A DNA stretch of 46,873 nt, taken from Candidatus Methanovirga aequatorialis (lineage in GTDB: Archaea > Methanobacteriota > Methanobacteria > Methanobacteriales > Methanobacteriaceae). The stretch spans positions 1 through 46,873 of the forward strand of contig JAITEE010000066.1 in NCBI GenBank assembly GCA_031282205.1, read 5' to 3'. The translations under genes and the position numbers were made by a program. The notes under the pieces were generated by a model. It worked only from the letters and a program-made list of their open reading frames with translations. It was not told the DNA's origin and searched no databases. Below are positions 31,623 through 40,488 of this stretch, in pieces. Numbering within the stretch: position 1 is the first letter of the stretch; every line of letters starts with the position of its first letter.

Positions 31623-31707
31623 TTAGAAAATTAATTGGAAAATATGAAAATAAAATCAATAATAATTTTAAGGAAAAAAGTAATACTTTAAAAATTAAAA
31701 AAAAAGA

Positions 31708-31775
31708 AATATTAAAAATATTCAAATATTAAAAATATTAAAAATATTCAAATATTAAAAATTATTAAAATACTT
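31708..31775. repeat. AT-rich iteron-like repeats (ATATTAAAAATATTCAA)
   Basis: aatattaaaaatattcaaatattaaaaatattaaaaatattcaaatattaaaaattatt. Confidence 0.6.
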
Positions 31776-31865
31776 CATCATTCATTCGATTATATGCTTT
31801 ATCATTCATATTTTTTGCTATTTTTCAATTTTTATTTTCATACTTTTTTTCCTCCTTTTGAACTA

Positions 31866-31887
31866 CCATGACTGATTTCAGTCATGG
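31866..31887. terminator. Perfect 10-bp palindrome at convergent late/early junction
   Basis: CCATGACTGA-TT-TCAGTCATGG, spans the stop codon of the 31878-32132 gene. Confidence 0.6.
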
Positions 31888-32132
31888 CTCAAGATGGTCT
31901 TGTGTGCAGCAGACAGAATTTTATTCCATCTGCTGTCATTAATCCTCCAAGAGGAGGATTTTATGATTTTTTCAACCTCTTCCTCAGAGATCAAGCCTTC
32001 AGCTTGATCATAGAAGAGTTCTGCCCAATCTTCTACGTCTGCGGTGTTGAACCACAGCGTATCGGGGGTTAATTTTTCGATTTCGTCGTTAAATTTGCAA
32101 GTGGTATTATTTGCGAATTCTTTTTCAAACAT
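31878..32132 (-). CDS. Small acidic early protein, unknown
   Basis: 84 aa; LWFNTADVEDWAELF motif shared with 32809-33036. Confidence 0.55.
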   Translation of the reverse strand: MFEKEFANNTTCKFNDEIEKLTPDTLWFNTADVEDWAELFYDQAEGLISEEEVEKIIKSSSWRINDSRWNKILSAAHKTILSHD

Positions 32133-32158
32133 TTTTTTTCACCTTTTTTTAATTTCTT

Positions 32159-32350
32159 TTACTTATTCCATAAATTCTCCTCTTCTAATTCGTCTAACAT
32201 GTCCAGAAAACAAGATCTGATAACTTCAGATCTTTTATTTTTTGGAACGATTTCGTAGAATCGTTCTTTATCTTTCATCTGCACCCTGAATGTTATTTGA
32301 GTATTTTTCGCAAGTAACTTTCTTTTATTTTTTATTTCATCATCTCTCAT
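32159..32350 (-). CDS. RHH-like small DNA-binding protein
   Basis: TQITFRVQMKDKERFYEIVPKNKRSEVIRSCFLDML; SD-like GGGGGTG upstream. Confidence 0.6.
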   Translation of the reverse strand: MRDDEIKNKRKLLAKNTQITFRVQMKDKERFYEIVPKNKRSEVIRSCFLDMLDELEEENLWNK

Positions 32351-32808: not shown

Positions 32809-33036
32809 CTAATGTAATGCGAGATACGCTTGCTTCTTCAGATAATTTATTTGCTCATCTGTTAGGTTCCAGAATAATTGAATATAAGTTAAACTATCCC
32901 TAACCCCATCTTCAATGAATATTCGGGCCCAGGAATCAATATCTGAATCCGTCCAAAAAATATTCTCATAATCCTCCTCTAAACATTTTTTTAATTTGGT
33001 ACTGTACGTTATTTCGATTCTTTTATTATTCTTCAT
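32809..33036 (-). CDS. Small early protein, unknown
   Basis: 75 aa; IFWTDSDIDSWARIF motif. Confidence 0.55.
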   Translation of the reverse strand: MKNNKRIEITYSTKLKKCLEEDYENIFWTDSDIDSWARIFIEDGVRDSLTYIQLFWNLTDEQINYLKKQAYLALH

Positions 33037-36166: not shown

Positions 36167-37867
36167 TTATTCCCATCCAGGCTTTAATTCATCCCAAAGA
36201 ACATTAAAAGGTATTCTAAAACCCCGAACAGTTCCATTATAAACCATATAGGATTTATATTCCGTATTAAAACCCAATTCATTTAATTTGTTCGAAAGAG
36301 AAGAGCAAGACATATTAATCTTGCTTTTAGGATACCCTGCCTTAACAAGAATGAACTCATGCTCCTTCACAAGATTATACATTAAATAAGACACTCTGTT
36401 ACTATTCAAAAAATCTTTAAAGGTGTCTATAGTATTCTCAACATGTTTCACTTCTTGATAACGATTATAATCATCTCTGACAAGATTCAGGAAATCAACC
36501 CATGATTTCTCTTTGTATTCTGTGTTTTGGGATTTTTTAACTATTAAATCCTTATTAAATAGTAATCCATGAATTAACCATTCTCTAGCTTCTTTAAATG
36601 AAGCTATTTTCGCCTCTAAATCATGCTCACTTAAATCATGCTTATTTTCTTCACGAAAGGCATCTACAAACTCTAGGAAATAGTCTTTATCGGTCCACGA
36701 CTTCATAAACTTAATGATTAAGTCATAAGGCCTTTTTTCAGTATAATCTTTTATGTTCTCTATCCAAAACCCGACGAACAACTTAGATATTGGTTTAAAT
36801 ACTTCTTTTAGGTCATTAACTTCCATGAGATGATTGTATTCTTTAATTTGATCTTTTTTTGGTTTTTCAGACATCGAAAAGCGTAATATTTCATAACGAC
36901 GATCAACACCATCATCAAGATCGTCCTGAAAATCAGAATTACGAGTAGTAATCATATAGCCGAAGCAATAATCAACACCCCGCTCCTCACCATTCATATC
37001 CAACGGTCTGCGAACCTCATAATCACTAACCATTAATTTCATAAGTTCATTATTATATTCCATGAATGTTTCACCCTCATCTAAGACAAAACAGCCAGAT
37101 GGTTGCCTAAGCCCCCTAAAAATCCTTGCCTGACTGCTGAAGTGACCACTGCTGAAGTGACCCATCAAAGGAACATTCATCTCAAACAAGTTATAATTTG
37201 TGATTAATTTAGCAACGCTTGTTTTAGAAACAGTGTTAGGACCAATTAGGATAAGATTAGGAAATATTAGATGCTGTTGCTTCATCAACATGCTGCATTG
37301 GCTCATCAAACCAAAAAAATGCAACTTGATATACTTCTCAGGACTTGCACCGAAAACATTATATAAGTCGTGCAATAGAAGAATATACGTGAAGATTTGT
37401 TTTTTCACCCCCAACGAAGAAATATATTCTTCATATTTCATCAATGAAGACAAATCATATTGTTCATTATCTTTTTGAACAATAAAACCTTCTTCATTTT
37501 TGAATACAGAGTCCAAAGGCATTCTTTTTAGATGAGGAATACCAAACTGGTCATCCATGAACCTTATAAGGAATTGTCGGGCGGTTAACCCGCAAACATG
37601 CGTAGGAAAAGTGAATCGTGCCTTATTCACTAATTCATTCAATCCCTTAAATCTATAAGAAATTGAATCTATTTTCATTTCAGAGAACATGTATTCATCA
37701 TCCTCTAAAATGTTATAATATTCTTTGTAATCAGATATTTTCTGATTAAACACTTTGTCATGACTGAGATTCACATCATCATTTATTTTTGATGATTTAA
37801 CCCAGCCATGATCATAGTAGAATTCTTTGTTGCCAATTTTAAGGCAACTCAATTCTTCTTTATTCAT
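36167..37867 (-). CDS. AAA+ replicative helicase, MCM/SF3-like (start MNKEELS)
   Basis: Walker A NLILIGPNTVSKTSVAKL, Walker B GCFVLDEGE, sensor YMITTRNSDF, Arg DRRYEILRF; GAGGTG SD upstream of ATG 37867. Confidence 0.75.
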   Translation of the reverse strand: MNKEELSCLKIGNKEFYYDHGWVKSSKINDDVNLSHDKVFNQKISDYKEYYNILEDDEYMFSEMKIDSISYRFKGLNELVNKARFTFPTHVCGLTARQFLIRFMDDQFGIPHLKRMPLDSVFKNEEGFIVQKDNEQYDLSSLMKYEEYISSLGVKKQIFTYILLLHDLYNVFGASPEKYIKLHFFGLMSQCSMLMKQQHLIFPNLILIGPNTVSKTSVAKLITNYNLFEMNVPLMGHFSSGHFSSQARIFRGLRQPSGCFVLDEGETFMEYNNELMKLMVSDYEVRRPLDMNGEERGVDYCFGYMITTRNSDFQDDLDDGVDRRYEILRFSMSEKPKKDQIKEYNHLMEVNDLKEVFKPISKLFVGFWIENIKDYTEKRPYDLIIKFMKSWTDKDYFLEFVDAFREENKHDLSEHDLEAKIASFKEAREWLIHGLLFNKDLIVKKSQNTEYKEKSWVDFLNLVRDDYNRYQEVKHVENTIDTFKDFLNSNRVSYLMYNLVKEHEFILVKAGYPKSKINMSCSSLSNKLNELGFNTEYKSYMVYNGTVRGFRIPFNVLWDELKPGWE

Positions 37868-37917
37868 TCTAACACACCTCAGCAATTTTAAACGGTGTGT
37901 GCGTGTTCTGTTTACTT

Positions 37918-39730: not shown

Positions 39731-40388
39731 TTTTTGTTAGAATAATTTGAATTAATAAATGTTTCGTATAGTTTGTTTAAATATCTATCAATTTTCCAAA
39801 AAGGTTTCTATATTCATAATTCAATGTTCTCACTTTAAAAAATAAAATTTTATCCATGTTTATATTATAAAATTGGAATATGATTTTAAATTAAAAAAGA
39901 AATAAAAGGATATTATACCTACTAAATTTGATTTTGAACTGAATACTAATTTAGGCATGAGAGTTAATTTTGCAAGTTTTGAACGTTAAAAAACATTTTA
40001 ATTTTTTTAAAATAACCATTTAATGTTATAGTGTATTAAATAATGTTTGTAAGTAATAAAAATGTTTAATTATTTATTATAAACATTAAATTTTTAATTA
40101 AAGAAATTATAATTGATATTTTTAAAAATAAAAGTATTTATAAATATCTTATTATAGTGATAATGGTAATGTTTATCAATATTAATCTAATTATTTCTTA
40201 TAAAAATTCTCTAAATTAAATTTGAATAGATTATATTGGATATTGATATTTTATAATTGACAAACTTTACCAAAATCATTATAATAGCTATTTTATAGTA
40301 TTTCTTATATTTTTTAGTTTTTATTTATATGTTTAATTAGCTAAAATTTGCGTTTAGAAGATGTTATATAAATAGTTTGCTATAAAAA

Positions 40389-40488
40389 GAGGATGTAAAA
40401 AAGTGTGGAGTTTTTCATGAAAATCAACAATTTACTTATAAAGAAAATGTGAAAAATCAAAAAAAACTCCACAAAAATTTACACCCTC
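40389..40488. mobile_element. 100-bp MITE-like element with TIRs and 8-bp TSD (TATAAAAA)
   Basis: GAGGATGTAAAAAAGTGTGGAGTTTTT ... CTCCACAAAAATTTACACCCTC; TATAAAAA at 40381-40388 and 40489-40496. Confidence 0.75.

Follow-up and report, generated by a model that had tools for sequence, protein, structure and literature searches.

RNA structure within coding regions has been much studied in RNA viruses. For the DNA viruses of methanogens, no report of such structure was found in the literature searched. Across life, a bias towards strong folding in the middle of coding sequences is general, taking the form of a weak genome-wide average that fades near the end of the coding sequence (PMC7063772). 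Structured RNA is also known from elements of the IS200/IS605 type: the source of the ISDra2 reRNA is the 3' end of tnpB together with the right end of the element and about 16 nt of flank (PMC8612924), a position matched by that of the archaeal sotRNAs (PMC12558985), and core-deleted IS605 derivatives (PATEs) that retain the terminal palindromes have been described in Haloquadratum (PMC3119063). The run of inverted repeats considered here, located among the early genes of a methanogen provirus, is best explained as two joined parts, an IS200/IS605 right end (31858-31887) and a fold of the sense mRNA (31888-32066).

The window, that is, the whole stretch of 46,873 nt analysed from Candidatus Methanovirga aequatorialis (contig C178), contains a tailed provirus with terminase, portal and tape-measure genes, flanked by host genes on the left (Nre) and on the right (FtsX-like and LolD-like transporter genes and an SRP54-type GTPase). 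Late genes run rightward, reaching 31622, and early genes leftward, from 37867 to 31878, with the labels "early" and "late" taken from gene order alone. At the convergent late/early junction lie AT-rich tandem repeats with 17/26-bp units (31690-31770), which an earlier note on this DNA had rightly placed beside the run; they are T-rich on the minus strand and are a plausible candidate for the terminator region of the early operon. Close relatives of the provirus were sought via the head protein in 19 other genomes and via the portal, the latter leading to Bacillus phages, and in both searches the similarity was distant only. Close to the right-hand side of the provirus, an intergenic inverted repeat at 40381-40480, with arms of about 28 bp (GTGTGGAGTTTTT...AAAAACTCCACA), is found again at L163:181-480 and resembles a MITE, and the AT-rich stretch at about 40100-40290, which by eye is similar to the reverse complement of L037:240-400, is probably a dispersed repeat of the host genome.

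The earlier note, made from the sequence alone, had reported strong inverted repeats at 31866-32318 in a density beyond chance, and both observations were borne out. The strong stems are all present, with perfect pairing at 31866 (10 bp), 31941 (8 bp), 31989 (8 bp), 32212 (9 bp) and 32245 (8 bp), and the stem at 31907 has 7 perfect base pairs, which in the minus-strand RNA become 13 when two G-U pairs are included. The items of 5-7 bp (31890, 32011, 32039, 32092 and 32292) are unremarkable when taken singly, the one at 32039 lengthening on the minus strand to UACG.CUGUGGU/ACCGCAG.A.CGUA. Perfect stems were counted in windows of about 450 bp if they had seven or more base pairs and three or more GC in each arm, over a background totalling 1.07 Mb. 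Six such stems were found in 31866-32266, against a maximum of three in 728 kb of host sequence (reached in 4 of 13,836 windows), and related provirus regions (about 340 kb, 6,951 windows) never exceeded two. Such density, together with the synonymous-codon shuffles described below, rules out a chance origin of the run. The view of the whole run as one dispersed element was also ruled out, only 31857-31887 recurring in the genome.

Part of the run lies in an 84-aa early ORF (P0001; 31878..32132, minus strand) with an AGGTGA ribosome-binding site. In the sense mRNA, the segment 31888..32066 (array A, minus strand) forms five consecutive helices, namely P1 (32024-32066), P2 (31973-32023), P3 (31936-31966), P4 (31907-31935, the 13-bp helix that includes two G-U pairs) and P5 (31890-31902), and its folding was compared with dinucleotide and synonymous shuffles. 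The minus-strand RNA has a minimum free energy (MFE) of -72.6 kcal/mol, versus -41.2 in dinucleotide shuffles (z -8.27), and a centroid nearly identical to the MFE structure, whereas the complementary plus strand reaches a z of only -4.44; array A and the right end taken together give a z of -9.0. The wobble count of the earlier note, which had favoured the plus strand, was reversed once whole helices were folded, with eight G-U pairs on the minus strand and two on the plus strand over 31858-32066, an asymmetry that is in part a matter of strand composition, for which the shuffles control. Synonymous shuffles within the gene, performed without the first hairpin, gave a P of 0.001 for the number of stems of at least 7 bp and an MFE z of about -5; the fold is therefore not imposed by the protein. 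GC content and GC3 are raised in this ORF, its GC3 of 0.47 being the highest among the ORFs tested. Among 36,406 windows of 300 nt, array A comes first or second according to how the background is fitted, its competitor for the top position being a low-complexity T-rich repeat (L056).

A smaller early ORF of 63 aa (P0002; 32159..32350, minus strand) contains the stems 32212-32234 and 32245-32266, which are built on repeated palindromic AGATCT. The codon-preserving shuffles that the earlier note had proposed as a check were passed by the 84-aa gene, while the result for the 63-aa gene was only marginal (P 0.03 on stem count, sense MFE z -1.6); the two hairpins of the latter are weakly supported, far below those of the 84-aa gene. 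The 63-aa protein shows a weak match to the regulator CdrS (E 0.004) and an all-helix predicted structure (pLDDT 75), features suggesting that it is possibly a small DNA-binding regulator. Homologues of the 84-aa protein were found neither in phages and family genomes nor in viral contigs, those of the 63-aa protein neither in phages nor in family genomes, and a search with P0003 did no better. As neither the 84-aa nor the 63-aa protein yielded a homologue, array A offers no covariation.

A second array of hairpins is found in the early helicase-like gene (36167..37867, minus strand), which has primase-helicase relatives in two other genomes (G168 and G140) and in the virus vir080. This array B (37403..37867, minus strand) occupies the first 155 codons with helices of 22, 18, 16 and 13 bp, and just upstream of them the stem ACACACC/GGUGUGU (37872..37900, minus strand) covers the Shine-Dalgarno sequence of the gene. 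The segment 37400-37900 folds with a z of -9.3 in the sense and -5.6 in the antisense orientation, and G-U pairs number 16 in the sense strand versus 5. In synonymous shuffles codons 1-81 reach a z of -7.1 and codons 82-155 one of only -2.0. The other early genes had been described as sparser in hairpins, which is wrong for this one, since array B matches array A in fold strength, with fewer perfect stems. Of 133 coding chunks in the window, two are outliers, the 84-aa gene and helicase codons 1-81, the remaining ones having a mean synonymous z of about -0.3; both of the strongest coding blocks of the window are thus in early genes. In the scan of 300-nt windows array B is among the top five and outranks those TnpB right ends which also surfaced there and served as positive controls. 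The helicase-like protein resembles its primase-helicase-like relatives only from about residue 161 onwards, past array B, and the part encoded by the array is therefore lineage-specific; DNA-level relatives of array A or array B were sought in phages and none was found. Given the presence of array B in a second early gene, the hairpins are to be seen as a property of the early operon. The 18-bp helix of array B (37752-37818, minus strand) contains ATCTCAGTCATG, a 12-mer also present in the TnpB right-end palindrome of contig C10, possibly by coincidence.

Two tailed viruses assigned to Methanobacteriales, vir080 and vir249, were analysed in the same manner. Their most folded genes in synonymous shuffles are early genes near the operon start, folded in the sense strand: vir080_00005 (L169, 3061-3480; z about -5) and vir249_00001 (L170, 74-567; z about -6). 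The 5' end of the helicase-like gene vir249_00063 (DUF5906) stands out in folding as well. When the three viruses were pooled, early blocks were more folded than late ones (one-sided P 0.0017), a z below -4 being reached by 6 of the 71 early blocks and by 1 of the 115 late ones, in a comparison that is exploratory and post hoc, the three genomes having been chosen afterwards and their early and late genes told apart by gene order. Taken per genome, the P value is 0.014 for the window and 0.12 and 0.08 for the other two, which are not significant alone. These data hint that early-gene folding recurs in other methanogen viruses.

In both arrays the folds exceed what chance and protein constraint would give, and they are stronger on the sense strand. 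This strand asymmetry and the persistence of the signal against synonymous shuffles indicate selection on the sense RNA, and not on the DNA or the protein. We therefore favour RNA-level selection on the early sense mRNA, which would act in cis, and give this reading a probability of about 0.5. The cis effect would probably be on the stability or translation of the early mRNA. Among the roles that the earlier note had envisaged, control of early genes by mRNA structure fits best, with a sense-strand fold that goes beyond codon-preserving shuffles and recurs in a second early gene, while the greater strength of the sense strand disfavours a structured antisense non-coding RNA. The folding also differs from the mid-CDS bias mentioned above: that bias is a weak average fading near the CDS end, whereas here single genes reach z values of -5 to -8 and the fold of the 84-aa gene continues as far as its 3' end.

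The strongest stem of the run, that at 31866, has another nature, unnoticed in the earlier note: it is the right end of an IS200/IS605-type element (31858..31887, minus strand), composed of the palindrome CCATGACTGA-AA-TCAGTCATGG followed by the element end TAGTTCAA. The corresponding sequence TTGAACTACCATGACTGATTTCAGTCATGG (31858-31887) is present again, with small loop changes, in five contigs of the same genome (C10, C52, C71, C133 and C157). Outside its own genome a copy was found in another genus (G028), the copies having the TCAGTCATGGTAGTTCAA end, and when the genome collection was searched for exact matches to the right-end terminus, one Methanobrevibacter MAG contig was returned. In C10 and C52 the right end immediately follows ORFs that carry the TNB domain of TnpB (PF07282), and the window sequence has both the subterminal palindrome and the element end common to such TnpB-linked copies; a Y1 transposase is encoded elsewhere in the genome (C143). 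Four copies served to define the left end of the element as TTTAT, then CTTGGACCTGAAAGAATACTATGACTGA...TCAGTCATAG; no such end is present in the window, which rules out an intact IS605 element or a PATE with both ends, and neither TnpB nor TnpA was found among the nearby ORFs scanned. The window copy, without left end or TnpB, is therefore a solo right end. As in PATEs, a terminal palindrome has been kept, but here the right end alone remains and a fused left-end sequence was not found. On the minus strand it adjoins the end of the 84-aa ORF and supplies the final codons and the stop of this ORF, the stop codon falling inside the palindrome. We infer that it was left after deletion of TnpB and the left end. 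Just beyond the right end, at 31808-31858 (minus strand), a strong AAGGAGG ribosome-binding site and an ATG open an ORF of 7 codons, probably what is left of a gene that the element interrupted. In another genome (G035), two right-end-like palindromes (ATAAACTACCATGACTGA...; L018 and L024) lie in AT-rich DNA with no TnpB end visible upstream, and are possible palindrome-only elements.

The identity of the right end raises the question of an omega RNA, the guide RNA of TnpB. With the reRNA and sotRNA type of molecule the window shares a near-identical right-end palindrome, an identical TAGTTCAA end and hairpins at the 3' end of an ORF; it differs in having no TnpB, no left end, no core and an ORF unrelated to TnpB. 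Six aligned TnpB right ends display a covarying hairpin and a conserved core (GGATTGCC, TTAGG...AATCC) present in nearly all of them, and a covariance model built from these six scores eight TnpB-type copies at 63-112 bits, the divergent G111 copy at 37 bits and the window at 27.5 bits, where the clear similarity is mostly that of the terminal hairpin. Upstream of this hairpin the core GGATTGCC...TTAGG...AATCC is missing, and on account of this and of the low score a canonical TnpB omega RNA was rejected. No Rfam family, introns and sotRNA included, scored above its gathering threshold at the locus, and true omega RNAs tested likewise matched no Rfam family either. The 3' part of the run is a possible diverged relict of an omega RNA, whose closing helix may be partly retained. 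A functional version of this idea is that the 3' part is an omega RNA of the TnpB type without TnpB, made from the early mRNA with a guide from the flank AAGGAGGAAAAAAAGTATGA, which would work in trans with a host TnpB or bind and block it. The covariance model does align end to end, with a partial closing helix (GGAUU/AGUUC) around three hairpins, and the layout is that of the true omega RNAs of this genome (ORF-3'-end hairpins, right-end hairpin, TTCAA); considering the 27.5 bits against 63-112, the missing core, an ORF that is not TnpB, and an array B that has no right end, so that both arrays are not explained, we regard it as quite improbable. RNA-based anti-CRISPRs (Racr) are viral RNAs that mimic CRISPR repeats (PMC10651486), a conceivable analogue should the right-end hairpin act as a TnpB decoy.

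The remaining explanations, like a trans-acting RNA, are each less likely than RNA-level selection in cis. If the 84-aa block were a viral non-coding structured RNA with a fortuitous or secondary ORF, the rise of GC and GC3 across it, its partly open plus-strand frames and a protein product with neither homologues nor a confident fold (uninformative prediction, pLDDT 47) would be understandable; the good ribosome-binding site and start, the 84 open codons, the weak similarity of residues 31-40 to a neighbouring early protein (32809-33036) and the position of array B in a clear coding gene make this unlikely. A neutral mutational origin, in which repeated template switching perfected imperfect palindromes, would account for the several perfect Watson-Crick stems with short loops and for the AGATCT-based stems of the 63-aa gene, but it should generate strand-symmetric Watson-Crick stems, whereas the observed folds are stronger in the sense strand and contain G-U pairs there; the clustering in two early genes, with the hint of recurrence in those of other viruses, also speaks against it, and we hold it to be improbable. 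The least probable reading places the function in the DNA, as ssDNA hairpins for viral replication, packaging or TnpA action. The right-end palindrome of IS200/IS605 elements is by nature an ssDNA signal, the adjoining AT-rich repeats would suit an origin, and the DNA itself folds with a z of -8.1. A DNA-level function would act equally on the two strands, yet in both arrays it is the minus strand that folds more strongly (z -8.3 versus -4.4 in array A, -9.3 versus -5.6 in array B), which disfavours the replication origin suggested earlier; moreover, there is no left end, the hairpins have no common sequence, and the strongest second site is in a coding region 5.5 kb distant.

Under RNA-level selection in cis, array A would have been built into the 84-aa coding sequence as an RNA structure of the early-operon sense transcript, with array B as its sister structure in the early helicase gene. 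By analogy, tandem hairpins in the 3'-terminal part of the early transcript, before the T-rich terminator-like sequence, would hinder 3' exonucleases. In the helicase gene, array B and the paired ribosome-binding site, being located at its 5' end, would restrain or time translation. It is tempting to extend this, although we consider the extension doubtful, to tailed viruses of Methanobacteriales at large, in which coding-region hairpin arrays in early genes (especially promoter-proximal ones and, in the replicative helicase gene, its 5' end) might be a general strategy for stabilising, timing or protecting early mRNA, with a TnpB right end capping one of the arrays in the present case. The locus provides a case of a transposon end incorporated into a viral gene and, with strong sense-strand folds in two genes of the early operon, a testable case of RNA-level control in the early expression of an archaeal virus.
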